Positions 9,802 to 42,022 of a stretch of DNA of 55,604 nt are shown piece after piece. The stretch covers positions 1-55,604 of the forward strand of contig JAFXCH010000003.1 of the NCBI GenBank assembly GCA_017516485.1. The letters are read 5' to 3'. Numbering within the stretch: the first letter of the stretch is position 1; the number at the start of each line of letters is the position of its first letter. Source of the stretch: Clostridia bacterium. Its GTDB lineage: Bacteria; Bacillota; Clostridia; Oscillospirales; Acutalibacteraceae. Both the position numbers and the translations under genes were made by a program. The notes under the pieces were generated by a model. The model saw only the letters and a program-made list of their open reading frames with translations, was not told where the DNA came from and did no database searches.

Positions 9802-10221
9802 TTATTCCTTTGCCGCTGTTTCGCAATACATACAGCGATATACTTTCTTTTCCTTATCGGTAAGTTTAAAAATCTGCGGCAATTCCTGCTCCGTTGAGGT
9901 TATGCAACGGGGATTTTTGCACTTGATAACGTTTGTCAGCTTTTCGGGAAGCTCAAGCTTTTTCTTGGCAACCATTTCCTCATTCTGAATGATGTTAACT
10001 GTTGCACCCGGGTCAACGTAGCCGAGGATATCAAGGTCAACGTGAAAATCCGTATCAATCTTGATAATATCCTTCTTGCCCATTTTGGAGCTTGAAACGT
10101 TCTTGATTAATGCAACCGAACAATTCAGCTCGTCAAGACCGAGAAGATTATAAATTTTCATAGCCTTGCCGGCTGTGATATGGTCGATAACTATACCGTT
10201 TTTAATTGAATCTATTTTCAT
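9802..10221 (-). CDS. pyrI: Aspartate carbamoyltransferase regulatory chain
   Basis: Regulatory subunit that binds the catalytic trimers of PyrB and transmits CTP/ATP control. The start is the ATG at 10221, nine bases after GGAGG inside the pyrB end; a TTG at 10230 touches the ribosome site and is ruled out. The 139-residue product has the N-terminal nucleotide-binding half (GIVIDHITAGKAMKIYNLL) and the C-terminal zinc domain with ligands CKNPRC...C..C near KVYRCMYC. It is the last gene of the pyr operon, one base after the pyrB stop. Presence of PyrI implies allosteric feedback at the carbamoyltransferase, unlike the PyrI-less Bacillus enzyme. Confidence 0.95.
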   Translation of the reverse strand: MKIDSIKNGIVIDHITAGKAMKIYNLLGLDELNCSVALIKNVSSSKMGKKDIIKIDTDFHVDLDILGYVDPGATVNIIQNEEMVAKKKLELPEKLTNVIKCKNPRCITSTEQELPQIFKLTDKEKKVYRCMYCETAAKE

Positions 10222-10222
10222 A

Positions 10223-11134
10223 TCATTCAACCTCCAACAGCTTTAATATAAGCGCCATACGGATGTATTTGCCGTTGAGCACCTGCTTGAAATAGCAGGC
10301 TCTGGGGTCACTGTCAATTTCAACGCTGATTTCATTAACTCTGGGCAGCGGATGCATAATCGCCAAATCTGCCTTTGCGGTATTAAGACGCTCAGGGCGG
10401 AGAATATAGCTGTCCTTAAGGCGAAGATAATCTTCCTCGTTAAAGAAGCGCTCACGCTGTACACGTGTCATATAGAGAATATCCAGCTCAGGCATTACGC
10501 TGTCAAGGTCTGTTGTCTGAACGTATTCAAGATTGTTCTTTTTAAGAGTTTCTTTTACGTAACTCGGTAATTTGAGTTCTTCGGGAGAAACAAGAACGAA
10601 CTTGATGTTTTCATATCTTGAAAGCGCATTGATAAGGGAATGTACAGTTCTGCCGAACTTAAGGTCGCCGCAAAAGCCAACAGTCAGATTATTAAGCCTG
10701 CCCTTTTCACGCTGAATAGTGAGAAGGTCTGTAAGAGTCTGTGTCGGATGATTGTGACCGCCGTCGCCAGCGTTGATAACCGGAATTGAAGCGTTCATTG
10801 CCGCAACGAGCGGAGCACCTTCTTTCGGGTGGCGCATTGCAATGATATCGGCATAGCAGGACGTAGTTTTGGCAGTATCGGCAATACTTTCGCCCTTTGC
10901 GGCGGATGAGCTCTGCGCCTCGGAAAAGCCGAGAACATTGCCGCCAAGCTCGTACATAGCCGCTTCAAAGCTAAGCCTTGTTCTTGTGGAAGGCTCAAAG
11001 AAAAGAGTTGCAAGCTTCTTTCCCCTGCACTTTTCGCTGTATTTTACAGGGTTGGCAATAATATCGTTGGCCTTGTCAATAAGCTCTTTTATTTCAGTAA
11101 CATCAAGCTCGAGAATGTCAATCAAACTTCTCAT
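10223..11134 (-). CDS. pyrB: Aspartate carbamoyltransferase catalytic chain
   Basis: Condenses carbamoyl phosphate with aspartate to carbamoyl aspartate, the committed step of pyrimidine synthesis, in the cytoplasm. The 303-residue product has the carbamoyl-phosphate loop [16 protein letters not shown], the second conserved loop around [32 protein letters not shown], and [10 protein letters not shown] near the C-terminus, all at normal positions. It lies 3 bases after pyrE and is followed by pyrI, forming the B-I pair typical of allosteric class B enzymes. Confidence 0.97.
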
Positions 11135-11137
11135 AAC

Positions 11138-11770
11138 TTATGCACCTATCCAGCTTTCATCGGAGGGATTGTTGCGGAACTTGATAAGCTTTGCAATATC
11201 CTCTGCTGCGATATAGCCTTCTTCTGCAGCAACTTCCGCAATGCAGTCAAAGTTTGTAAGGCTTACGTTCTTAACGTTTGCCGCAGCAAGTCTGTCAAGA
11301 CCCTTCTGCATACCGTAAGTAAAGATTGAAGCAATACCGAGAACCTCTGCACCTGCTTCACGTAATGCATCAACAACGTCGATAACGCTACCGCCGGTGG
11401 AAATAAGGTCCTCAACAACAACAACCTTCTGACCTGCCTCAAGCTTGCCTTCGATTCTGTTCTGTCTGCCGTGGTCCTTGCTCGAGCCTCTGACATAACC
11501 CATAGGAAGACCCATAATTTCAGCAGTGATAGCTGCGTGAGCAATACCTGCGGTCGAAGTACCCATAAGAACCTCAACATCAGGATAGTTTTCCTTAATT
11601 ATAGCTGCAAGACCGTTTTCAACATCCTTACGTGCCTCGGGAGCAGTAAGAATAAGGCGGTTGTCGCAGTAAACGGGGCTCTTGATGCCGCTGGCCCAGG
11701 TAAAGGGCTCTTCGGGGCGGAAGAAAACGGCTTTGATTTTAAGTAAATCCTTGGCAATAAGTTTCTGCAT
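11138..11770 (-). CDS. pyrE: Orotate phosphoribosyltransferase
   Basis: Transfers the phosphoribosyl group of PRPP to orotate, giving orotidine 5'-phosphate. The 210-residue protein has the PRPP-binding signature VVVVEDLISTGGSVIDVV and the upstream VEVLMGTSTAGIAHA and MGYVRGSSKDHGRQNRIEG blocks (the mobile catalytic loop). The ATG at 11770 follows AAAGGAGATAAATTG. It stands between pyrF and pyrB in the pyr operon; the gap to pyrF is 33 bases. Confidence 0.97.
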   Translation of the reverse strand: MQKLIAKDLLKIKAVFFRPEEPFTWASGIKSPVYCDNRLILTAPEARKDVENGLAAIIKENYPDVEVLMGTSTAGIAHAAITAEIMGLPMGYVRGSSKDHGRQNRIEGKLEAGQKVVVVEDLISTGGSVIDVVDALREAGAEVLGIASIFTYGMQKGLDRLAAANVKNVSLTNFDCIAEVAAEEGYIAAEDIAKLIKFRNNPSDESWIGA

Positions 11771-11803: not shown

Positions 11804-12502
11804 TTAACCGACAAATTCAGCTACGCAGCGCTTATATGCGGCTACGGGGTCTTCTGCAGCAGTAATCGGCCTGCCTACAACAATGTAATCACTGCCGATT
11901 TCCTTTGCCTGAGCAGGTGTCATAACTCTGGACTGGTCACCTATATCGCCGTCTGCAAAGCGGACACCGGGTGTGACCGTAAGGAACTTTTCGCCGCAGG
12001 TTTCGTGTACCTTACCTGCCTCAAGCGGAGAGCAGACAACACCGTCAAGACCGGCTGAAGCGGCATTCTTGGCGTAGTGCATTACAACCTTGTCGATAGG
12101 CTCATTAATAAGCAGGTCTGCTTCCATTCTCTCCTGGCTTGTGGAGGTAAGCTGAGTAACAGCAATAAGAAGCGGACGGGTGCCGTCAGGACGGGTAAGA
12201 CCTTCAAGACCGGCCTGCATCATTGTAATTGTACCGCTTGCATGAAGGTTGGTCATATCAACATCAAGGTGTGAAAGAACAGCCATTGACTTTTTGACAG
12301 TATTGGGAATATCGTGAAGCTTGAGGTCAAGGAAAATCTTGTGACCTCTTGCTTTGATTTCCTTTACAATTGCAGGGCCTTCAGCATAGTAGAGCTCCAT
12401 ACCGATTTTAACAAAGGGCTTGCAATCCGTAAACTTGTCAAGAAAATTCATTACATCAGCCTTGCTTGCAAAGTCACAAGCAATAATTACGTCTTTACCC
12501 AT
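11804..12502 (-). CDS. pyrF: Orotidine 5'-phosphate decarboxylase
   Basis: Decarboxylates OMP to UMP. The 232-residue protein carries the class 1 active-site sequence [16 protein letters not shown] with the catalytic Lys-Asp array, and the phosphate-binding C-terminal [18 protein letters not shown] and [16 protein letters not shown]. Its ATG overlaps the pyrD stop (TAATG), and its ribosome site GGAGG lies inside the pyrD end, which implies translational coupling. Confidence 0.97.
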
Positions 12503-13413
12503 TAATGTGCGCCTCCTATAATCTGTGATAAATCATCTATATTATATTTTTCCATAACCTTAGGAAGATTTTCAATAATAGTCTTACTTGCAAAGGGGTC
12601 AACAAGGTTTGCCGCACCTACCTGTACCGCCGTAGCACCGGCAAGCATCATTTCAATAACGTCCTCCGCTGTCGAGATACCGCCCATACCGATAATCGGA
12701 ACTTTGACTGCCTCATAAACCTGATAAACCATACGAAGTGCAATAGGCTTTATTGCTGGACCCGAAAAACCGCCCATTTTATTGGCAATAACCGGCTTTT
12801 TGGTTTTAAGGTCGATGCGCATACCGAGCATTGTATTAATCATACTGATGCCGTCTGCACCTGCCGCTTCGCACGCCTTTGCAATATCAACAATATTTGT
12901 AACATTGGGAGAAAGCTTGATATAAAGCGGTTTTTTTGTAACCTTACGGCAGGCGGCAGTTACTTCTGCGGCAGCTTCGGGAGATGTACCGAAGCTCATA
13001 CCTCCGCCGTGAACGTTCGGGCAGGAAACATTGACCTCAAACCAGCCAATCTGCTCCTGCGAATCAAGCTTTTCAACGGTGTAAGCATAATCTTCAACCG
13101 AAAAACCGCTGACATTAGCCATAACGGGTTTATTAAAGCAAGCCTTGAGCTTAGGAAGCTCGTTTTCTATAACCTTTTCAACGCCAGGATTCTGAAGACC
13201 GACTGCGTTAATCATACCGCTGTCACATTCAGCAATTCTCGGGCAGGGATTGCCGAAACGAGGGTCTTTGGTTGTACCCTTGAACGAGAATGTACCAAGG
13301 CAGTTGATATCGTAAAGCTCGGCAAATTCATAGCCGAAGCCAAAGGTACCGCTTGCAGGGATAACAGGATTATCGAGAATTATACCGCTTAAGTTTACCT
13401 TAGTATTTACCAT
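12502..13413 (-). CDS. pyrD: Dihydroorotate dehydrogenase B (NAD+), catalytic subunit
   Basis: FMN-containing catalytic subunit that oxidises dihydroorotate to orotate; class 1B enzymes pass electrons to NAD+ through PyrK. The 303-residue barrel has [15 protein letters not shown], the catalytic-base loop [14 protein letters not shown] (cysteine as the class 1 base), [10 protein letters not shown], and the FMN phosphate site [14 protein letters not shown]. It overlaps the pyrK end by seven bases and pyrF by one base. Adjacent pyrK confirms the 1B type, which is independent of quinones and suits an anaerobe. Confidence 0.96.
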
Positions 13414-14138
13414 ATAATCTCCTCCCTTTCAAGCACGGGACCGTCCTTACAGATTCTCTTATTTCCGTACTTAGTTTTGCAGGAGCAGCCCATACAGGCG
13501 CCGAAGCCACAGCCCATTCTCTCCTCAAAGCTATACTGGCCGCTTGTTGATGCAACAGCCTCTATTGCCTTGAACATAGGCATAGGTCCGCAGGTGAAGA
13601 AATATGTGTAATCAATGCCCTTCATCGCATCGGTTACAAAGCCCTTAACGCCGTAGCTGCCGTCAGCCGTTGCAACCAATACCTCAGCACCGAGCTTTTT
13701 AAAGTCATCCTCAAGAAAAATCTCTTCCTTGGTATTAAAGCCCAGCACAACAGTAACCTTTTTGCCCTCATTTATAAGCTTTTTACAAAGATTATAAAGC
13801 GGGGGTACACCGACACCGCCGCCGATAAGAAGAGGTTTATCGCCGCATTTATCAAGGCTGTAGCCGTTACCGAGACCGACAAGCACGTCAAGCTCCTGTC
13901 CCTCGGTCATTTTACTCATCTGCTCAGTACCGACACCGACAACCTTGTAGACAAGCGTTATTGTGGTTTCGTCATAATCGCAGATTGAAATGGGCCTGCG
14001 AAGAAATTTTCCGTCAAGCTTTATGTTAACAAACTGACCGGAAGCAGTAATTGCACCGGTATCGCCCCCGAGCACCATTTTGTAAACGGTGCTCGTGAGC
14101 TGAACATTTGAGAGGATTTTATAAAAACCTTGAGTCAT
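13407..14138 (-). CDS. pyrK: Dihydroorotate dehydrogenase B electron-transfer subunit
   Basis: FAD and [2Fe-2S] subunit that couples PyrD to NAD+. The 243-residue protein has the FAD-binding RRPISICDYD motif, the nucleotide-binding LLIGGGVGVPPLYNL glycine loop, and the C-terminal iron-sulfur loop MGCGFGACMGCSCKT followed by a fourth Cys at RICKDGPVL. It lies 13 bases after carB and overlaps pyrD. Confidence 0.96.
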   Translation of the reverse strand: MTQGFYKILSNVQLTSTVYKMVLGGDTGAITASGQFVNIKLDGKFLRRPISICDYDETTITLVYKVVGVGTEQMSKMTEGQELDVLVGLGNGYSLDKCGDKPLLIGGGVGVPPLYNLCKKLINEGKKVTVVLGFNTKEEIFLEDDFKKLGAEVLVATADGSYGVKGFVTDAMKGIDYTYFFTCGPMPMFKAIEAVASTSGQYSFEERMGCGFGACMGCSCKTKYGNKRICKDGPVLEREEIIW

Positions 14139-14151
14139 TTATAATCACCTT

Positions 14152-17100
14152 TTAAGCATCAATTGTGGAAATAAAGAGTGTGGTTTCTTCAAGCACATCA
14201 AGAAGAACCTTAACAGTATCAAGAGAAGTGAACATTGTTACGTTGTTTTCAACTGCACACTGTCTGATTTCGTGGCCGTCCATTGCACCGCCTGCAGCGT
14301 TCATATCTCTTGTGTTGATTACGTATGTTACGTAGCCCTGACGGATAGCCTTGAGAATATCGTCGTTACCGTCGCTGATTTTGGGAAGAATATGAGTTCT
14401 GATACCGTTCTGCTTAAGGAATTCGGCGGTACCCTCAGTAGCCTGAATATTAAAGCCCATATTATAGAAGCGGCGAATAAGCGGAAGAGCCTCTTCCTTA
14501 TCCTTATCGGAAATTGTGGCAAATACCGTACCGTAGCTCTTGACGTTCATACCGCTTGCCTGAAGAGCCTTATAAAGTGCACGGCGAAGGCTGTCGTCAT
14601 AACCGATTGCTTCACCTGTGGATTTCATTTCAGGTGAAAGGTAGGCATCCAGACCTCTGAGCTTGGAGAATGAGAAAGCGGGAACCTTTACGTACCAACG
14701 CTTCTTTCTGGGAGCGATTGTATAATCAATACCCTGCTCTTTAAGCGATACACCGAGCATACAGAGTGTTGCAATATCGGCAAGGCTGTAGCCGGTGGAC
14801 TTTGAAAGGAAGGGAACCGTTCTGGAGGAACGGGGGTTAACCTCAATAATAAATACGTTATCGTCCTTATCAACAATAAACTGAATATTGTAAAGACCGA
14901 CAATACCTATACCAAGACCAAGCTTCTTGGTGTAATCGATAATTGTTTCCTGTACCTTTTCGGAAATTGAGAAGGTGGGATAAACGCTGATTGAGTCACC
15001 GGAGTGGATACCTGTTCTTTCAACAAGCTCCATTATGCCGGGAACAAATACATCTTTACCGTCGCAGATTGCGTCAACCTCAACCTCTTTACCGACAATG
15101 TACTTATCAACAAGAACGGGCTTGTCCTCGTCAATTTCAACGGCTGTAGTAAGGTATCTGCGAAGCTGTGCTTCATCGGCAACGATTTCCATTGCACGGC
15201 CGCCGAGAACAAAGGACGGACGCACAAGCACGGGATAGCCGATTCTTGCCGCTGCGGCAACACCGTCTTCAATCTTTGTAACAGCCTGACCCTCGGGCTG
15301 AGGAATGTTGAGGGACTGAAGAACCTTCTGGAAGGAGTCACGGTTTTCTGCACGCTCGATAGCATCGCAGTCTGTACCGATAATCTTGACACCCATATTC
15401 TTGAGGCCGTCGGAAAGGTTGATGGCGGTCTGACCGCCGAGAGAAGCAACAACGCCTTCCGGCTTTTCAAGGTGGATGATATTCATAACGTCTTCGATAC
15501 ACAGCGGCTCGAAATAAAGCTTATCGGAGCAGGTGTAGTCTGTTGAAACGGTTTCGGGGTTGTTGTTAATGATAATAGCCTCGTAACCGAACTTTTTAAT
15601 TGTTGTTACAGCGTGAACGGTTGAATAGTCGAATTCAACGCCCTGACCGATACGGATGGGTCCCGAGCCGAGAACGACAATCTTTTTCTTGTCAGACATC
15701 TTGGACTCGTTTTCAGCCTCATAAGTCGAGTAAAGATACGGAATATAGCCGTCAAACTCTGCTGCACAGGTATCAATCATCTTATACACGGGGAACATAT
15801 CGTTTGCTTCACGAAGCTCGTAAACTTCCTTAGCAGTCATATCCCATACGCCTGCGATATATTCATCGGAGAAGCCCATTCTCTTTGCCTTGTAAAGCAC
15901 GGCAACATCAGCCTTGTTTGCCTTGACTTCCTTTTCAAGGTCAACAATGTTCTTGAGCTTTTCAATAAAGTACATATCGATTTTTGTAGCGTGGTTAATC
16001 ATACCGACGTCAATGCCTCTGCGAAGCAGCTCTGCAATGGCGTAGAAGCGGTCATCGGTACCGTCAACAATGTACTTGAGAAGCTCATCGTCCGTAAAGG
16101 TATCAAACTTTTTGAGATAGAGGTGGTTTACACCCGTTTCAAGAGAGCGTACAGCCTTGAGAAGGCTTTCTTCAACAGTTCTGCCGATGCTCATAACCTC
16201 ACCGGTAGCCTTCATCTGAGTAGAGAGCGTGTTATTAGCATTGGTGAACTTATCAAACGGGAAACGGGGCATCTTTGTAACAACATAGTCAATTGTGGGC
16301 TCGAATGCACCGTAGGTGTTTGCTATTTTAATTTCATCAAGTGTCATACCGAGAGCAATTTTCGCCGTAACTCTTGCAATCGGGTAACCGCTTGCCTTGG
16401 AAGCAAGTGCGGAGGAACGGGAAACTCTGGGGTTAACCTCGATAAGATAATATGTAAATGAAAGCGGGTCAAGAGCGAACTGAACGTTACAGCCGCCTTC
16501 AATCTTGAGTGCACGGATAATCTTAAGAGCGCTGTCACGGAGCATATTGTGTTCTTTGGCGGTAAGAGTCTGTGTGGGGCAGACAACAACAGAGTCACCT
16601 GTATGGATACCGACAGGGTCGATATTTTCCATATTACAGATGGCTATAGCTGTATCGTTTGCATCACGCATTACTTCGTATTCGATTTCCTTATAGCCCT
16701 TGATGCTCTTTTCAACAAGTACCTGATGTACGGGAGAAAGAGCAAGAGCATTCTTAAGGATTTCTCTGCACTGTGCTTCGTTGTCGGCAAAGCCGCCGCC
16801 TGTACCGCCGAGAGTGAATGCAGGACGGAGAACAACCGGATAGCCGATTTCTTCCGCTGCGGCAAGACCCTCTTCCATTGTGTTGGCTATAAGTGAGGGA
16901 AGAACGGGCTCACCGAGAGATTCACAAAGCTCCTTGAAAAGCTCTCTGTCTTCAGCCATTTCAATACTCTTGCTGCTTGTGCCGAGAAGCTCAACACCGC
17001 ACTCTTTGAGTATGCCTTTCTTCTCAAGCTGCATAGCAAGGTTAAGACCTGTCTGACCGCCGATACCGGGTACAATTGCATCGGGTCGCTCGTAGCGGAT

Positions 17101-17331
17101 AACCTTTGCAACATATTCAAGTGTGAGAGGCTCCATATAGACCTTATCGGCAATGGTAGTATCAGTCATAATTGTAGCAGGGTTGGAGTTGCAGAGAACA
17201 ACCTCGTAGCCCTCCTCCTTAAGAGCAAGACAAGCCTGTGTACCGGCATAGTCAAACTCAGCGGCCTGGCCGATAACAATCGGACCGGAACCGATAACAA
17301 GTACCTTTTTAATATCTGTTCTTTTTGCCAT
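14152..17331 (-). CDS. carB: Carbamoyl-phosphate synthetase large chain
   Basis: Synthesises carbamoyl phosphate from bicarbonate, ammonia and two ATP, and carries the ammonia-using active sites. The 1059-residue protein has the expected duplicated ATP-grasp architecture: first half with [19 protein letters not shown] and [12 protein letters not shown], second half with [19 protein letters not shown] and [12 protein letters not shown], both with EVNPR metal sites, and a C-terminal MGS-like allosteric domain (from about residue 930, with [19 protein letters not shown]). All recognised motifs appear intact. carA lies immediately upstream (stop one base from this ATG). Because the paired CarA lacks its glutaminase residues, CarB probably relies on free ammonia here. 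Confidence 0.97.
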
Positions 17332-17332
17332 C

Positions 17333-18424
17333 TTACTTGTCCCCCTTCATAAGATTGATGAATCTTTCATAAAACAGTGAAATTTCGCACGGAACGTACT
17401 GTACAGAATAAACGTTATCCTTCTCGCAGCTTACACCCTCAACGGTTTTGTCAAACAGATTGATGTGTGTAATCTTAAGATCAGTACCTTCGACAGAGTC
17501 AGCATCAATTACGTAGCTGTGGTTCTGTGTGTGGTTGCGGAAGGTATTGTTAATAAGCGAATGAACAGCGTGGTTACAGCCTCTGTGTCCGAACTTGAGC
17601 TTATACGTTTTTGCGCCGTAAGCAAGGCCGATAATTTCGTGGCCGAGACCGACACCGAATATCGGGCACTTACCCTTGAGCTGTCTTACAAGCTCAATAA
17701 CGCAGGGAACATCCTCGGGATTGCCGGGACCGTCGGAAATGTAAATTCCGTCGGGTTTCATTTTGAGAACTTCCTCTGCACTCGTGTCAAACGGAACTAT
17801 TGTAATATTACAGCCTCTGGAATTAAGTATACGGATAAGGCTGAGCTTGATGCCGCAGTCAATGGCAACAACGTTATACTTAGCATTTGCTGTTCTTGAA
17901 TACCAACGCTTTTTACAGCTTACAGTTTCAACGGCATTGGTCGGAATTTCGATATTGCCGAGAATTTCAAGAGCCTTTTCTTTAGGAGTATCAATGCTTG
18001 TAAAAAGCACCTTGCAGGTACCGTTATCACGGATATGACGGGTAAGCTCTCTGGTATCCATACCCTCAATTCCGGGAATATTGTAATCCTCCATTACCTC
18101 GTTGAGCGTCTTTGTTGTACGGAAGTTGGAGGGAATATCGTTATACTCCCTTACGACAAGACCGCCGATGGTGGGAACTCTGGACTCAAAATCATCGTCA
18201 CAAGTACCGTAGTTACCGATAATGGGGTAAGTCATAACAACAGCCTGATATGTATACGCAGGGTCGGAAATAATCTCCTGATAGCCGAGCATCGCCGTGT
18301 TGAAAACAAGCTCGCAAACCCGTTCACACTCGCTGCCGAAGCCCCTGCCGTAAAACTCTGTACCGTCTTCAAGTACAATTTTTCTGTCATACTTCTCAAA
18401 CTCTATTATTTTCTGTTTATCCAT
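17333..18424 (-). CDS. carA: Carbamoyl-phosphate synthetase small chain with degenerate glutaminase site
   Basis: Small subunit of carbamoyl-phosphate synthetase; the normal role is to release ammonia from glutamine and tunnel it to CarB. The 363-residue protein aligns along its whole length: N-terminal domain ([37 protein letters not shown]), then the class I amidotransferase domain with [11 protein letters not shown] and [11 protein letters not shown]. The nucleophile elbow, normally GxCLGHQ, reads [11 protein letters not shown], so the catalytic Cys is Gly259 (codon GGT at 17650-17648). The motif QGHPEASPGP, which supplies catalytic His and Glu, reads [10 protein letters not shown] at 342-351. 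All three catalytic residues are lost while the fold motifs and frame remain intact, as in ammonia-dependent relatives such as CPS1. It overlaps the pyrC end by 19 bases. Confidence 0.95.
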
Positions 18425-19632
18425 ACTGCTTTACCTCCGCATACAGTTAATTCACATTTTCCGCTGACCGACATTCCCTCAAACGGTGTGCTTCTTCCCT
18501 TTGAAAGGAACTCGTCAGGATTGATTTTATAATGCTCTTCAAGATTATAAACACAGTAGTCGTCTGCCTGCAATTCAAGTCCGAAACGTTTTCGTGGGTT
18601 GACAGACATAAGCTCAATCAGCTTCTGAAGAGTTATTGCACACTCTTCTTTTACAAGTTGTGTGAAAAGCACGGGGAAGGCGGTTTCAATACCGACAACA
18701 CCCATAAGGCTGTCTTTGAGACCCTTGGACTTTTCTTCTGCGCTGTGCGGTGCGTGGTCGGTTGCTATCATATCAATAGTGCCATCCTTTATGCCCTCAA
18801 TAAGCGCAAGCCTGTCCTCCCTGCTTCTGATCGGAGGATTCATCTTAAATCTGCCGTCCTCCTGCAGGTCGCTGTCATCAAAAACAAGGTAGTGCGGAGC
18901 GGTCTCGCAGGTGACATCTACTCCCCTTTTCTTAGCTTGTCTGATTAATTCAACGCTTTCTTTTGTTGATATATGGCAGACGTGATATTTACAGCCCACC
19001 TGCTCGGCAAGGCGCAAATCACGCTCAATCGGCTTCCACTCACTTTCGCTGCATATTCCCTTGTGACCGTTAAGCCGTGCATACTCACCGTCGTGAATAT
19101 AGCCGCCGTTAAGCAGAGAATTATCTTCACAATGGGCAACGATTATCTTGCCGAGTGCTTTGGTCTTCTTCATAGCCTCAAGCATCATTTCCTCGCTCTG
19201 TACTCCCCTGCCGTCATCCGAAAAAGCACAGCAGTATGGTGCAAGCTCTTCAAAATCCGAAAGCTGTTCACCCTTCTGACCTACCGTTATTGAAGCATAC
19301 GGATGCACGTTGATTACAGCATCTTTTTCAATTATATCGAGCTGCTGTTTTATCGCCTCTACACAGTCGGGTACGGGGTTGAGGTTAGGCATAGAGAATA
19401 CGTCTGTATAGCCGCCTCTCGCCGCAGCGGCAGTACCGCTTGCTATGGTTTCCTTATAAAAAAAACCCGGCTCTCTGAGATGAACGTGAACATCACAAAA
19501 AGCGGGAAATATAATACAATTATTAAAGTTAAAGTCGTTACCCTGACCTCCCTGAAGAGTGACCTCAGAGAAATCTGTTTTAACGAATCTACCGTTTTCA
19601 TATTTAAGACAATTGTTAAAGACGGCCTTCAT
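18406..19632 (-). CDS. pyrC: Dihydroorotase
   Basis: Cyclises carbamoyl aspartate to dihydroorotate. The 408-residue product is a class I-type dihydroorotase: DVHVHLREPGF carries the first two zinc-binding histidines, FSMPNLNPVPD follows, IVAHCEDNSL and YHVCHISTKESVE hold further metal-site histidines, and MIATDHAPHSAEEK contains the catalytic aspartate. The ATG at 19632 follows AAAAGGAGAAAAT. It is the first gene of the nine-gene pyr operon and directly follows a strong promoter; its 3' end overlaps carA. Confidence 0.95.
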   Translation of the reverse strand: MKAVFNNCLKYENGRFVKTDFSEVTLQGGQGNDFNFNNCIIFPAFCDVHVHLREPGFFYKETIASGTAAAARGGYTDVFSMPNLNPVPDCVEAIKQQLDIIEKDAVINVHPYASITVGQKGEQLSDFEELAPYCCAFSDDGRGVQSEEMMLEAMKKTKALGKIIVAHCEDNSLLNGGYIHDGEYARLNGHKGICSESEWKPIERDLRLAEQVGCKYHVCHISTKESVELIRQAKKRGVDVTCETAPHYLVFDDSDLQEDGRFKMNPPIRSREDRLALIEGIKDGTIDMIATDHAPHSAEEKSKGLKDSLMGVVGIETAFPVLFTQLVKEECAITLQKLIELMSVNPRKRFGLELQADDYCVYNLEEHYKINPDEFLSKGRSTPFEGMSVSGKCELTVCGGKAVWINRK

Positions 19633-37567: not shown

Positions 37568-40249
37568 TTAATAAATATTAACCGTCTTTAAAACACCCGA
37601 ATCGGTTGTAAATGAGCTTTCTGTTTCAAGGCTTGAAACTGCTTTGATTATTATATCCGCACCGATGTTTTCAAACACTTCTGCGGCGATGACCTTATAG
37701 TCAATTTGGGGCACTTTTCCGCCGAAAACGACCGCACTGTCATATTTCCCGCCTGAATACTCTTCAATGCCCAGTGCCTTGATTTTGGGCATATTTGCGC
37801 CGATTTTTCTTTCTTCGCCGAAGGCTTTGATTTCAGCATCAATATAAGCCGTATCATTGAAGTACTTAATATCGGCGTTGTTTGCCTTTGCAAATTCAAC
37901 TACTTCGTCAAGTGCTTCGTTACTCATAGAACTGTTAACAAGCACAACGGTATTGTTCATTCTTTCCGAAGCTGCTTTGAGTGCCTGTTCTCTTGAAACC
38001 GCTTTACCGTCAACGGTTGAATTTATTATTCTTAGCGGATTATTGAGCACCGAAAAACCGAATGCGCCGACCTTACACAGAACGTTAGTGTCTGTCGGCT
38101 CACAGCGGACAATAGTTTTACCCGAGGTGTGAACGTTCATTTCGCATAGCTTTGCACAGCCCGTACAGAATGTTTTGGTAACCTTTGTTTCAAGCGGAAC
38201 GTTCTTTCTGAACGGAACCTTGGGCTCAAGGGCACCTGTCGGACAAAGTGCGGCACACTGACCGCAGGAAATACAGCGTGAAGAATCAAGAGAGTTATTG
38301 AATTCGGGCGAAACAACCGTAATAAAGCCGCGGTTTACAAGACCGAGAGCGGTTACACCCATAACCTCGTCGCAAACTCTTACGCATTGACCGCAGAGTA
38401 TACACTTGTCGTTATCGTGTATAAGGAAAGGATGTGTTGAATCCTTTCCGCAGAGTGTTTTTTCGCCTGCATAAACCGAGGGATTAACCTCATAAAACCT
38501 TGAATATTCAAGAAGCTTGCACCTGAAGTAATCCAGACAGCCGCATTCAAGGCAACGGTCAGCTTCTTTCTTTGCCGCTTCTTCAGTAAAGCCCAAAGCA
38601 ACTTCTTTAAAATTGTGCTTTCTTTCTTCGGCAGACATTGTAGGCATTTTGGCACAGGGAACTTTTTCTCTGTCAGCCAAATCTTCGGCAGTAACCTGCT
38701 TTTCAACAACGAAGGGTTTACGGTAGCCGAGTGTAAAGCCGTAAATGTAGCTCTCAATAACGTCTGCCGCTTTCTGTGCCTCGCCTATTGCTGCAACGGC
38801 GATTGATGCCCCTTTATTCGTTGCATCGCCAACGGCAAACACACCGTCAATATTAGTCATAAACGTTGCTTCATCGGCAACAATTGTATTTTTCCGTGTC
38901 AGCTCAAGTCCGTCAAGGCCGTTGATATCCGTCTGCTGACCGATAGCCATAATAACGCTGTCAACGTCAAGGATTTCAAATTTACCCTCTACGGGTACGG
39001 GTGAGCGTCTGCCGCTTGAATCGGGCTCACCGAGCTCCATAACCTGAAGCTTAACGGCACTTACCTTACCGTCTGCACCGATAATTTCGGCAGGATTTGT
39101 GAGGAACTTGTAAATTACGCCCTCTTCCTCCGCCTCATCAATCTCAAGCTTTTCGGCAGGCATTTCGTCCCTTGTTCTGCGGTAAACAACGTAAACCTCA
39201 TCAGCACCGAGCCTTACCGCTGTACGGCAGGCATCCATTGCGGTATTACCGCCGCCGCAGACAGCAACCTTTTTGCCGATTTCCAAGGGCTTGCCCTCAA
39301 TAACGCTGCGCAGGAAATCAATGCCGCCGTAAACTCCGTCAAGGCCTTCGCCTTCAACGCGCATAGGACTGCTTTTCCACGCACCTACAGCTATAACAAC
39401 GGCATCACTTTCAGCCTTAAGGCTCTCAATAGTGAAATCAACGCCGAGAGTCTTATTGTTAATCATTTCAATGCCGAGGTCTTCTATGAGCTTGATTTCC
39501 TTGTCCAAAAGATCTTTAGGCAGTCTGTACTGCGGAATACCGTAGCGAAGCATACCGCCCATTTTCGGCATTTTATCGTAGATTTTGACGCTGAAGCCCT
39601 TTATACGAAGGAAATATGCCGCTGTAAGGCCTGCAGGGCCACCGCCGACAACGGAAACCGTTTTACCATTCAGCGGTGCCAATTCGGGAACATAGGTGTT
39701 TTCGCTTGCAATATCAATATCGGCTACAAAGCTTTTAAGGTAAGCTATCTGTATCGGGTCTTCAACGAGACCTCTGCGGCAGGCAGTCTGACAAGGGTGC
39801 GGACATACCCTGCCTATTGCGGCAGGCAAAGGAACTTTTTTCTTGATTAATTTGAGTGCCTCCTCGTACTCGCCGTTAGCAATTAAGCCAACATAACCCT
39901 GACAGTCAGTACCTGCAGGACAGGCAAGAGAGCAGGGTGCCTTACAGTCGCCCGTATGATTTGAAAGAAGCATATCAAGCGCAAACTTTCGCGCTCTCTC
40001 AACTCTTTCAGAAAAAGTATTTATATTCATACCATCGGTAACCTTTGTAGAACACGCACGAAGAAGCTTCGGCACACCTTCAACCTCTACAACGCATATA
40101 CCACAGGCACCGTATTCCTCAATTCTCTTATCGTGGCAAAGGGTGGGAATTGCATCATACCCGACAGATTCTGCCGCCTGAAGAATTGTCATACCTGGTG
40201 TTGCTTCAATTTCAGCACCGTCAATAGTAATAATATATTTTTCACTCAT
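37568..40249 (-). CDS. Iron-sulfur FAD/NAD(P) oxidoreductase, StnA-like subunit of a bifurcating transhydrogenase
   Basis: An 893-residue multidomain electron-transfer protein. In order: a [2Fe-2S] domain (Cys 38, 49, 52, 66); a NuoG/GltD-like cysteine region (H98, Cys 102-116, 149-157); a GltD/NfnB-like FAD and NAD(P) domain with VGGGPAG (201-207) and CGGGNTAMD (331-339); a CxxCxCx5C cluster at 566-577; two [4Fe-4S] clusters (616-626, 659-669); and a molybdopterin-oxidoreductase-type [4Fe-4S] motif (695-725) without a molybdopterin domain behind it. With NuoE and NuoF upstream this matches the Sporomusa-type (Stn) NADH:NADP+:ferredoxin transhydrogenase. No FeFe hydrogenase H-cluster motif is present. 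The start follows AAGGAGGGG. Confidence 0.85.
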   Translation of the reverse strand: MSEKYIITIDGAEIEATPGMTILQAAESVGYDAIPTLCHDKRIEEYGACGICVVEVEGVPKLLRACSTKVTDGMNINTFSERVERARKFALDMLLSNHTGDCKAPCSLACPAGTDCQGYVGLIANGEYEEALKLIKKKVPLPAAIGRVCPHPCQTACRRGLVEDPIQIAYLKSFVADIDIASENTYVPELAPLNGKTVSVVGGGPAGLTAAYFLRIKGFSVKIYDKMPKMGGMLRYGIPQYRLPKDLLDKEIKLIEDLGIEMINNKTLGVDFTIESLKAESDAVVIAVGAWKSSPMRVEGEGLDGVYGGIDFLRSVIEGKPLEIGKKVAVCGGGNTAMDACRTAVRLGADEVYVVYRRTRDEMPAEKLEIDEAEEEGVIYKFLTNPAEIIGADGKVSAVKLQVMELGEPDSSGRRSPVPVEGKFEILDVDSVIMAIGQQTDINGLDGLELTRKNTIVADEATFMTNIDGVFAVGDATNKGASIAVAAIGEAQKAADVIESYIYGFTLGYRKPFVVEKQVTAEDLADREKVPCAKMPTMSAEERKHNFKEVALGFTEEAAKKEADRCLECGCLDYFRCKLLEYSRFYEVNPSVYAGEKTLCGKDSTHPFLIHDNDKCILCGQCVRVCDEVMGVTALGLVNRGFITVVSPEFNNSLDSSRCISCGQCAALCPTGALEPKVPFRKNVPLETKVTKTFCTGCAKLCEMNVHTSGKTIVRCEPTDTNVLCKVGAFGFSVLNNPLRIINSTVDGKAVSREQALKAASERMNNTVVLVNSSMSNEALDEVVEFAKANNADIKYFNDTAYIDAEIKAFGEERKIGANMPKIKALGIEEYSGGKYDSAVVFGGKVPQIDYKVIAAEVFENIGADIIIKAVSSLETESSFTTDSGVLKTVNIY

Positions 40250-40264
40250 TGCAAATCCCCTCCT

Positions 40265-42022
40265 TTACTTTTTCTCTACCGCACCGAAGCGGCAGGCATC
40301 CATACACTGACCGCACTTGATACATACTGCCGTGTCAATAGTAAATTTCTTCTTTATTTCACCGCTTATTGCACCTACGGGACACTTTTTACTGCAGAGT
40401 GAACAGCCAATGCACTTGTCCTCATTGATAGTATACTTGACAAGGTCTATACACTCACGTGCCGGGCAACGCTTTTCATTAATATGTGCCTCGTATTCAT
40501 CACGGTAATATTTAATAGTTGTGAGAACAGGGTTAGGCGCAGTCTGACCCAGACCGCAGAGTGCACCTGCCTTAATTTCATTGCAGGTTTCTTCAAGCAG
40601 TTCTATATCGCCTTCTTTGCCCTCGCCCTTACAGATTCTGTCAAGAATTTCGAGCAAGCGCTTCGTGCCGATACGGCAATGCGTACACTTGCCGCAGGAT
40701 TCTTTAGCGGTAAAGTCAAGGAAGAAGCGTGCCATACCGACCATACAGGTGCTTTCATCCATTACAACCATACCGCCAGAGCCCATAATTGCGCCCGTTG
40801 CGGAAAGCTTTTTATAATCAATTTCGGTGTCCTGCATATCGGCAGGAATACAGCCGCCCGAAGGGCCGCCGAGCTGAACGCATTTATAAGATTTATCGGT
40901 CTTCATTCCTCCGCCGATATCAAAAATAACGTCGGAAAGCTTCTTACCCATAGGCACTTCAACAAGACCGCCGCGCTTGATTTTACCCGTAATTGCAAAA
41001 ACCTTGGTACCCTTGCTGTCGGGTGTACCGAGCTTTGCAAATTCTTCGCCGCCGTTGCGGATAATCCACGAAACGTTGGCAAAGGTTTCAACGTTATTTA
41101 TATTAGAGGGCTTGCGCCAATAACCCGACTGTGCAGGGAAAGGCGGCTTGAGGCGAGGCATACCTCTTGAGCCTTCAAGTGACTCAATAAGAGCTGTTTC
41201 CTCACCGCAGACAAACGCACCTGCACCTGCTTTTATTCGGAAAGAACATGAGAATTCGGTACCGAAAATATTATCGCCGACAATGCCCTTTTCCTTTGAC
41301 TGTTCAATGGCACGTTCAAGCCTGATTATAGCAAGAGGATATTCGGCACGGACATAGACAATTGCTTCCTTAGCCCCTATTGCATAAGCGCCTATAAGCA
41401 TACCCTCAATAAGGTTATGCGGGTTGCTTTCAATTACTGCTCTGTCCATAAATGCGCCAGGGTCACCCTCGTCCGCATTGCAGATGAGGTATTTTTCTTC
41501 GCCCTGACTGCTTCTTGCGGCGTTCCATTTAAACCACGTCGGGAAGCCTGCACCGCCTCTGCCCGCAAGGCCCGAAATCTTGATTTCTTCAATAACGCTT
41601 TCGGGAGTCATTTCGATAAGAGCTCTTTTGAGTGCCGAGTAACCGCCGCTTGCAATGTAATCGTCAATCTCTTCGGGATTAATAACGCCGCAGCCGTTAA
41701 GAGCAATTCTTGTCTGTGAATCAAGGAATACTCTGTCTTCATCACTGAGAAGAAGGTTTTCGATTTTTGAAACATCGCCGTCAGTGAGATAAGCGGCTAT
41801 GCTTTCACTATCGTTTTCAGAAACCCTTACAAGTCTTGCTGTTAATGTTTCATCGTTATATATATCGACAATAGGCTCAAGGTAGCACATACCTATACAG
41901 CCCGTAACCGAAAGATTTGCATTGATGTTTTTTTCTTGAATTATATTTTTAAGGCTGTTGAAAACCTTACCTGCACCTGCGGAAATACCGCAGCTGCCCT
42001 GTCCGACTTTAACGGTAATCAT
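40265..42022 (-). CDS. NuoF-type NADH-binding flavoprotein subunit (StnB/HydB-like)
   Basis: The 585-residue NADH- and FMN-binding subunit of the complex. N-terminal thioredoxin-like [2Fe-2S] domain with GSCGISAGAG and TGCIGMCYLEP; the NuoF core with the NADH/FMN glycine loop GLAGRGGAGFPTWFKW and the GGAGAFVCGEETALI block; a [4Fe-4S] site SCGKCTHCRIGT; and a C-terminal ferredoxin domain with two clusters (CIGCSLCSKKCP, CIKCGQCMDACR). This arrangement is that of HydB of bifurcating hydrogenases and of StnB. Its start overlaps the NuoE stop, and the flavoprotein gene follows after 15 bases. Confidence 0.92.
   Translation of the reverse strand: MITVKVGQGSCGISAGAGKVFNSLKNIIQEKNINANLSVTGCIGMCYLEPIVDIYNDETLTARLVRVSENDSESIAAYLTDGDVSKIENLLLSDEDRVFLDSQTRIALNGCGVINPEEIDDYIASGGYSALKRALIEMTPESVIEEIKISGLAGRGGAGFPTWFKWNAARSSQGEEKYLICNADEGDPGAFMDRAVIESNPHNLIEGMLIGAYAIGAKEAIVYVRAEYPLAIIRLERAIEQSKEKGIVGDNIFGTEFSCSFRIKAGAGAFVCGEETALIESLEGSRGMPRLKPPFPAQSGYWRKPSNINNVETFANVSWIIRNGGEEFAKLGTPDSKGTKVFAITGKIKRGGLVEVPMGKKLSDVIFDIGGGMKTDKSYKCVQLGGPSGGCIPADMQDTEIDYKKLSATGAIMGSGGMVVMDESTCMVGMARFFLDFTAKESCGKCTHCRIGTKRLLEILDRICKGEGKEGDIELLEETCNEIKAGALCGLGQTAPNPVLTTIKYYRDEYEAHINEKRCPARECIDLVKYTINEDKCIGCSLCSKKCPVGAISGEIKKKFTIDTAVCIKCGQCMDACRFGAVEKK

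Follow-up and report, generated by a model that had tools for sequence, protein, structure and literature searches.

Bacterial carbamoyl-phosphate synthetase (CPS) is a textbook glutamine enzyme, and the locus analysed here raises the question of which nitrogen donor serves a CPS whose small subunit, CarA, is without glutaminase residues. The locus lies in a stretch of 55,604 nucleotides from a Clostridia bacterium (the window) and forms a complete pyr operon in the order pyrC-carA-carB-pyrK-pyrD-pyrF-pyrE-pyrB-pyrI (Table 1). The carA frame opens with ATG and contains no internal stop, and carB is complete, as the initial annotation had described. By descent, the carA product belongs to the CarA/CarB type of CPS, as it gives Pfam matches to both CarA domains, PF00988 (CPSase small-chain) and PF00117 (GATase-like), beside a complete carB, and it scores 381.1 bits against TIGR01368, the model of the glutamine-hydrolysing CPS small subunit (curated cut-off 307.35). 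The Cys-His-Glu triad of that family is missing from the protein (Gly259, Val344 and Cys346), and with Gly259 it displays the glutaminase-like part without catalytic Cys that characterizes an ammonia-dependent CPS.

Table 1. Coordinates of the pyr operon genes and altered CarA sites in the window, and of related features in other loci (L) of the collection.
Feature	Position	Strand	Basis or remark
pyrC, dihydroorotase; overlaps carA start	18406..19632	-	TIGR00857 above cut-off
carA, CPS small subunit without glutaminase residues, 363 aa	17333..18424	-	TIGR01368, PF00988, PF00117; AlphaFold2
Ala56, codon GCG, at place of Ser (E. coli S47)	18257..18259	-	alignment to E. coli CarA
Asp231, codon GAC, at place of Asn (E. 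coli N240)	17732..17734	-	alignment to E. coli CarA
Nucleophile site, Gly259, codon GGT (E. coli C269)	17648..17650	-	alignment to E. coli CarA
Glu263, codon GAA, at place of Gln (E. coli Q273)	17636..17638	-	alignment to E. coli CarA
QYVPCE block, then six-residue deletion of G359-P360 loop	17384..17401	-	alignment
carB, CPS large subunit, 1059 aa, complete	14152..17331	-	NF003671 1489.9 bits
pyrK, dihydroorotate dehydrogenase electron transfer subunit	13407..14138	-	NF000799 231.6 vs 314, NF000798 214.5 vs 219, both below cut-off
pyrD, dihydroorotate dehydrogenase	12502..13413	-	NF005574 above cut-off
pyrF, orotidine-5'-phosphate decarboxylase	11804..12502	-	NF001273 above cut-off
pyrE, orotate phosphoribosyltransferase	11138..11770	-	TIGR00336 above cut-off
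pyrB, aspartate carbamoyltransferase catalytic subunit	10223..11134	-	TIGR00670 above cut-off
pyrI, aspartate carbamoyltransferase regulatory subunit	9802..10230	-	NF002063 above cut-off
Short GuaA, GMP synthase ATPPase without GATase domain, 327 aa	L407:5368-6351 (window's genome, G000:C19)		profile match
Glutamine-mode cluster	L397:158-17907		also L396, L395, L394 with L032, L399, L405; gene content varies by copy

The initial annotation had read the nucleophile Cys as Gly (codon 17650-17648) and had reported the His and Glu lost from the QYVPCE block. Alignment with the E. coli CarA chain (258 bits) bears out both readings, with H353 replaced by Val344 (GTT, 17395-17393) and E355 by Cys346 (TGC, 17389-17387), whereas the deletion that follows, put at about nine residues, amounts to six against the nearest intact relatives. 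Beyond what had been annotated, the positions of S47, N240 and Q273 are altered as well. From the E. coli structures, we take S47, N240, K202 and Q273 to be residues of the glutamine site, and the 358-361 loop to line the ammonia tunnel. The C269G substitution in E. coli CarA abolishes the use of glutamine but not that of ammonia. An AlphaFold2 model of the window CarA (48 CarA rows as input) is confident, with a mean pLDDT of 93.4 and a pTM of 0.91, and thus suggests that the CarA fold is retained. With its glutamine-nitrogen site lost from CarA, the window CPS most likely uses free ammonia as its donor.

The genome of the window (G000) is a draft of 2.17 Mb in 65 contigs and 90.7% complete, and error in sequencing or binning, including the base-call error that the initial annotation had named as a possible refutation, is the first explanation to be weighed. 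At the nucleophile position, GGT is the codon in each of the seven dead copies known from the genus, i.e. CarA copies that have lost their glutaminase residues (the window, G001, G003-G006 and the pyr-operon copy of G007); in the four intact relatives compared, the codon is TGC or TGT. As the identical codon stands in six other assemblies, a base-call fault is excluded and sequencing error is rejected, and since named records, some of them titled strains, show the same change, we regard any explanation by sequencing or binning as next to inconceivable. A second CarA was not found in G000, the only other match (E up to 10) scoring 11 bits, which answers, for a genome of this completeness, the earlier suggestion to look for an intact carA elsewhere. 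Among 59 genomes searched for CarA, the window's own included, a dead-form CarA, 82–96% identical, is likewise the only match in the congeners G001, G003, G004, G005 and G006 (87–99% complete). G007 holds a dead CarA in its pyr operon and an intact CarA elsewhere, G002, G008 and G010 have an intact copy, and G009 gave no CarA match. The alignment of relatives that the initial annotation had called for thus sets seven dead copies in the genus, with the triad and the S47, N240 and Q273 positions altered in the window clade, beside sister copies that are intact. In a 72-row tree, the seven-row clade of the window (99% support) nests within a 19-row clade (99%) that includes five intact CarA. The dead CarA would thus have arisen within the genus from a glutamine-dependent ancestor, G007 still holding both forms, and from the sequences compared the CarAB of the window is very probably an ammonia-only CPS of this origin.

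Selection on the gene bears on whether CarA still has a role. Whole-carA dN/dS for nine pairs within the genus is 0.025–0.142, far below 1, and the frames are unbroken in seven assemblies. Compared with the N-terminal half, the GATase-like half shows the lower dN/dS in six of the nine pairs, and the order is reversed in the other three, namely G001-G004 and the two pairs that include G007. The large subunit is conserved in parallel: residues 1-1037 of the window CarB align with E. coli CarB 1-1044 (1035 bits), and R129, R169, E215, H243, E299, N301, R303 and R265, residues with catalytic roles, are all retained. Across the first 612 E. coli positions, 188 CarB positions are conserved beside intact CarA (55 rows), and 165 of these are kept at ≥90% beside dead CarA (72 rows). 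No clear signature of ammonia use emerges in CarB over this region, the window clade differing only at a few of the least-kept positions listed (e.g. L87, F391, I248 and A251). A bypass through carbamate kinase is rejected, as no match exceeds the cut-off in any of eight genomes (2/14 control genomes pass it). CarA as a decaying pseudogene, with CarAB making no carbamoyl phosphate, would explain the loss of the whole triad and one loop, but is very hard to reconcile with the low dN/dS and unbroken frames, the complete pyr operon, the conservation of CarB over those 612 positions and the missing carbamate kinase, and we give it very little credence. For RNA families, none was found within the window, and nine loci together yielded two T-boxes and one tRNA and nothing else.

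The initial annotation had treated the window as a single case. A collection in which each of 84,980 species is represented by a single genome was scanned for a non-Cys nucleophile codon in CarA, and at least 119 stretches matched, of which 80 were taken as loci; the pattern is blind to codons starting with T (Ser TCN, Tyr, Phe, Trp) and says nothing on these. A CarA frame is present in all 80 loci, the nucleophile residue being Gly in 73, Asp in four, Ser in two and Asn in one, and 72 of the loci also have carB as a frame on the same strand. In six of the eight loci without carB, CarA sits at the edge of the stretch or the stretch is very short, and L168 is near an edge; at L125, carB is truly absent nearby. 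Among the matches listed, titles with Clostridia, Clostridiales or Oscillospiraceae predominate, gut samples being the source of many, and others are titled Syntrophomonadaceae, Opitutales, Alistipes, Oxalobacter, Mailhella or strains of Bacilli. Two ‘Alistipes’ rows nest within the wider clade of the window in the 72-row tree, so that these titles may reflect wrong bins or transfers. As a measure of prevalence, 98 genomes of the window's class (taken as Clostridia, in line with named neighbours in the CarA tree) were evenly drawn (≥90% completeness requested) and searched with TIGR01368, full-length matches being read; for G000 and G048, these came from the 59-genome search. CarA is held by 71 of them and a non-Cys CarA by 20, in 16 of which it is the sole CarA found; these counts take G121 (Cys kept, Gln for His) as Cys and leave G102, with no full-length CarA, outside. 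G042 and G036 each have a second CarA.

The distribution of the change on a CarA tree (210 of 214 rows, after removal of four that were short or identical, and without the trait columns) requires 31 changes between Cys and non-Cys with all branches kept, and 29, 22 and 11 when branches below 80, 90 and 95% SH-aLRT are collapsed and the polytomies resolved for the fewest changes. The counts carry no direction, although regain of a lost triad seems unlikely. Contrary to a single case, the loss therefore recurs across the class, with at least 11 changes on the tree even when weak branches are collapsed. At further loci (L326, L328, L043, L042, L320 and L321), CarA is strongly diverged, with Ser, Asp or Gly at the nucleophile position and altered elbow motifs.

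Where CarA erodes was read from 97 Cys rows and 117 non-Cys rows over the 60 positions that are ≥95% conserved in the former. The ten least kept in non-Cys rows are C269, H353, I205, N240, P360, E355, D362, G359, K202 and E71, and 28 of the 60 stay at ≥90%; residues ~268-291 are biased in this comparison, since 80 of the 117 rows had been selected through a pattern in that region. As aligned, and I205 and E71 apart, the positions most eroded cluster in the glutamine site and the tunnel loop. An alternative in which CarA still hydrolyses glutamine through another nucleophile or an unusual route could point to Cys346 and Glu347, which sit in the old His/Glu block. The alteration of the S47, N240 and Q273 positions speaks against it, as do the non-Cys rows not selected by pattern, 27/37 of which have Gly at the nucleophile with no common replacement of the His, and we consider such a route highly unlikely. 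The tunnel loop bears on a further alternative, in which ammonia is channelled to CarAB from another protein (a glutaminase, deaminase or glutamine synthetase) docked on the dead CarA. The strong constraint on the GATase-like half and the nearness of carA to carB in 72 of the 80 scan loci would suit a docking surface, but six of the genus's seven dead copies lack the G359-P360 loop, which is also frequently altered in dead copies elsewhere, and the genes of the pyr operon offer no candidate partner. Docking is hence improbable, if less so than continued hydrolysis of glutamine.

The use of free ammonia would, by comparison, be the best-supported reading, with CarA as a structural or allosteric partner as the initial annotation had supposed: the dead copy is the sole CarA and is constrained, and CarB is conserved. 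The glutamine-binding and glutamine-hydrolysing residues are gone from CarA, and presumably the activity with them. Free ammonia would reach CarB either directly or along another path of the kind put forward for human CPS1 and E. coli CPS, and CarB would then make carbamoyl phosphate as usual. The purifying selection suggests that CarA is retained for the support that its fold gives to CarB, in a structural or allosteric role. The human CPS1 paper, which also puts forward an alternative path for ammonia, describes E. coli CPS variants with a blocked or perforated ammonia tunnel as having normal activity when ammonia is supplied externally (PMC4655335); according to a paper on Blochmannia, CarAB can use ammonia when glutamine is absent (PMC3017870). 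Against this, an E. coli review has glutamine as the donor for E. coli CPS, describes the enzyme as needing very high, likely unphysiological ammonia, and considers the reaction with ammonia likely to be physiologically irrelevant (PMC6245113). With such a need for ammonia in E. coli, some adaptation is to be expected in an ammonia-only CarAB.

The closest parallel is CPS1 of human and other vertebrates, in which a glutaminase-like part with the Cys replaced lies beside a working synthetase part and the donor is ammonia (PMC4655335); solved CPS1 chains (5dot, 6uel) match both the CarA and the CarB of the window. Unlike CPS1, a single fused chain that is activated by NAG and in which Ser replaces the Cys, the CPS described here consists of two bacterial subunits encoded in a pyrimidine operon, has mostly Gly for Cys and has arisen repeatedly. 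E. coli CarAB has the same two subunits as the window, but with a full triad and glutamine use. CPS III of Alcolapia is described as a convergent shift towards ammonia (PMC7657897), although in a fish and in the urea cycle. Our literature search, with subscription journals mostly outside its reach, found no report of a natural triad-less bacterial CarA, of its occurrence together with losses of GuaA and PyrG, or of the gene cluster described below.

Other glutamine enzymes of nucleotide synthesis are affected in the same genomes. On the GMP synthase model, which has 512 positions, the GuaA of G000 matches just 191-512, and nevertheless passes the NCBI cut-off for ‘glutamine-hydrolyzing GMP synthase’. 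It resembles the ATPPase of the archaeal two-subunit GMP synthetase in being without its own GATase domain, and such subunits are described as able to work in vitro on ammonia supplied from outside (PMC10526850). In the archaeal enzyme, the GATase is a subunit of its own, whereas the only two PF00117 matches in G000 are the dead CarA and HisH, the latter with its triad intact. PyrG (PF06418) has no match in G000, as against 14/14 control genomes; the pathway to UMP is complete in the window, yet CTP synthase is unmatched in its genome. PF06418 is also unmatched in G001, G003-G006 and G009, and in 29 of the 98 Clostridia genomes. GuaA frames of 335-344 residues occur in G001, G003, G004, G005 and G009, and no GuaA was found in G006. 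In the prevalence sample, a full-length GuaA is absent from 12/16 genomes with a sole dead CarA versus 4/55 other CarA holders (Fisher 2e-7), and PyrG from 12/16 versus 5/55 (Fisher 6e-7); neither value is corrected for kinship, for which families were inspected only, and ‘full-length’ is by length alone, triads having been read for the four full-length GuaA of the dead-CarA genomes.

Within families of mixed state, the three traits move together in f35, f48 and f49. GuaA loss tracks CarA in f38, where PyrG is absent in both states, and in f29 PyrG tracks CarA except in G121, in which the Cys is kept, the His is lost, and PyrG and GuaA are both missing. Exceptions with a sole dead CarA yet PyrG present are G070, G074, G085 and G137, and those with a full-length GuaA are G063, G070, G085 and G137. 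Three of these four GuaA keep the Cys of GxCYGxQ; the fourth (G063, L336:143-1687) has the elbow AVGYGMQ, with Gly for Cys, in a genome whose only CarA is also without Cys, which shows that the same change struck GuaA too. A GATase stump without the nucleophile motif is present in all six mid-length GuaA that were read (417-435 residues, counted from the first Met) and in the GuaA of G037; the mid-length forms (L333, L340, L341, L342, L343, L344 and L099) are perhaps a stage between full and short. A GATase-less PyrG in G007 was also considered and dropped, as its 314-aa frame is cut off by the end of the contig. Nor has glutamine use been lost in general: in the window's genome, the catalytic Cys is retained in PurF (two copies), PurL (named only by its length and a PF13507 match), GlmS and HisH, and glutamine is thus still used elsewhere in this genome. 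The ammonia-rich gut niche of the initial annotation is conjectural, the co-loss of the GuaA GATase and PyrG fitting a life on ammonia but the Cys kept in PurF, PurL, GlmS and HisH pointing to continued use of glutamine.

Intact CarA occurs in a different setting in some of these Clostridia. In G097, it is part of a cluster on one strand that reads gdhA - glutamine synthetase III - amt - asnB - guaA - pyrG - purF - carA - carB - dapF - dapL; the same genome also holds a dead CarA (L314), and its GuaA includes a short frame, 328 residues long. Related versions are found in G094 and G011, with the pyrG of G011 on another contig, and the cluster of G007 is split across two contigs (L394, L032). 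In G007, G012 and G019, the dead CarA is the pyr-operon copy and the intact copy lies elsewhere. Among loci not fetched for this purpose, cluster-type neighbours accompany 7/60 Cys rows versus 1/94 non-Cys rows (L124), with Cys loci being the shorter (median 4,050 vs 8,000 bases). From its glutamine synthetase and ammonium transporter, we infer that the cluster serves low ammonia. Lineages with an ammonia-only CPS appear to have shed it: the intact CarA of the cluster, a full-length GuaA and PyrG were not found in close relatives of the window, which would leave them dependent on ammonia for carbamoyl phosphate and GMP. We tentatively suggest, as a scheme that may well prove wrong, that nucleotide synthesis in Clostridia has two nitrogen modes, a low-ammonia glutamine cluster (gdhA, GSIII, amt, asnB, guaA, pyrG, purF, Cys-carA and carB) and ammonia-mode copies beside it (a dead CarA in the pyr operon and a GATase-less or Cys-less GuaA). 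Lineages of ammonia-rich habitats, the genus of the window included, would have dropped the glutamine mode and with it their only CTP synthase, and would then draw on outside cytidine or on an unrecognised ammonia-dependent CTP enzyme.

The loss in CarA is real, recurrent and functional-looking, and is best filed as a variant of CarAB and a bacterial counterpart of the glutamine-to-ammonia change of vertebrate CPS. If this holds, 16 of the 71 CarA-holding Clostridia sampled would make pyrimidines from free ammonia, such genomes would be misannotated (NCBI models label both the dead CarA and the short GuaA ‘glutamine-hydrolyzing’) and metabolic models would carry the wrong nitrogen donor, while glutamine analogues should not block the carbamoyl-phosphate step. 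The repeated conversions offer a natural series for studying the requirements of a synthetase that works on free ammonia, and they expose a gap in some genomes, namely full UMP synthesis without a detected CTP synthase. Elsewhere in the window, an 893-residue 2Fe-2S/4Fe-4S pyridine-nucleotide oxidoreductase is encoded next to the gene of a 585-residue NuoF-like protein (37568-42022, minus strand).
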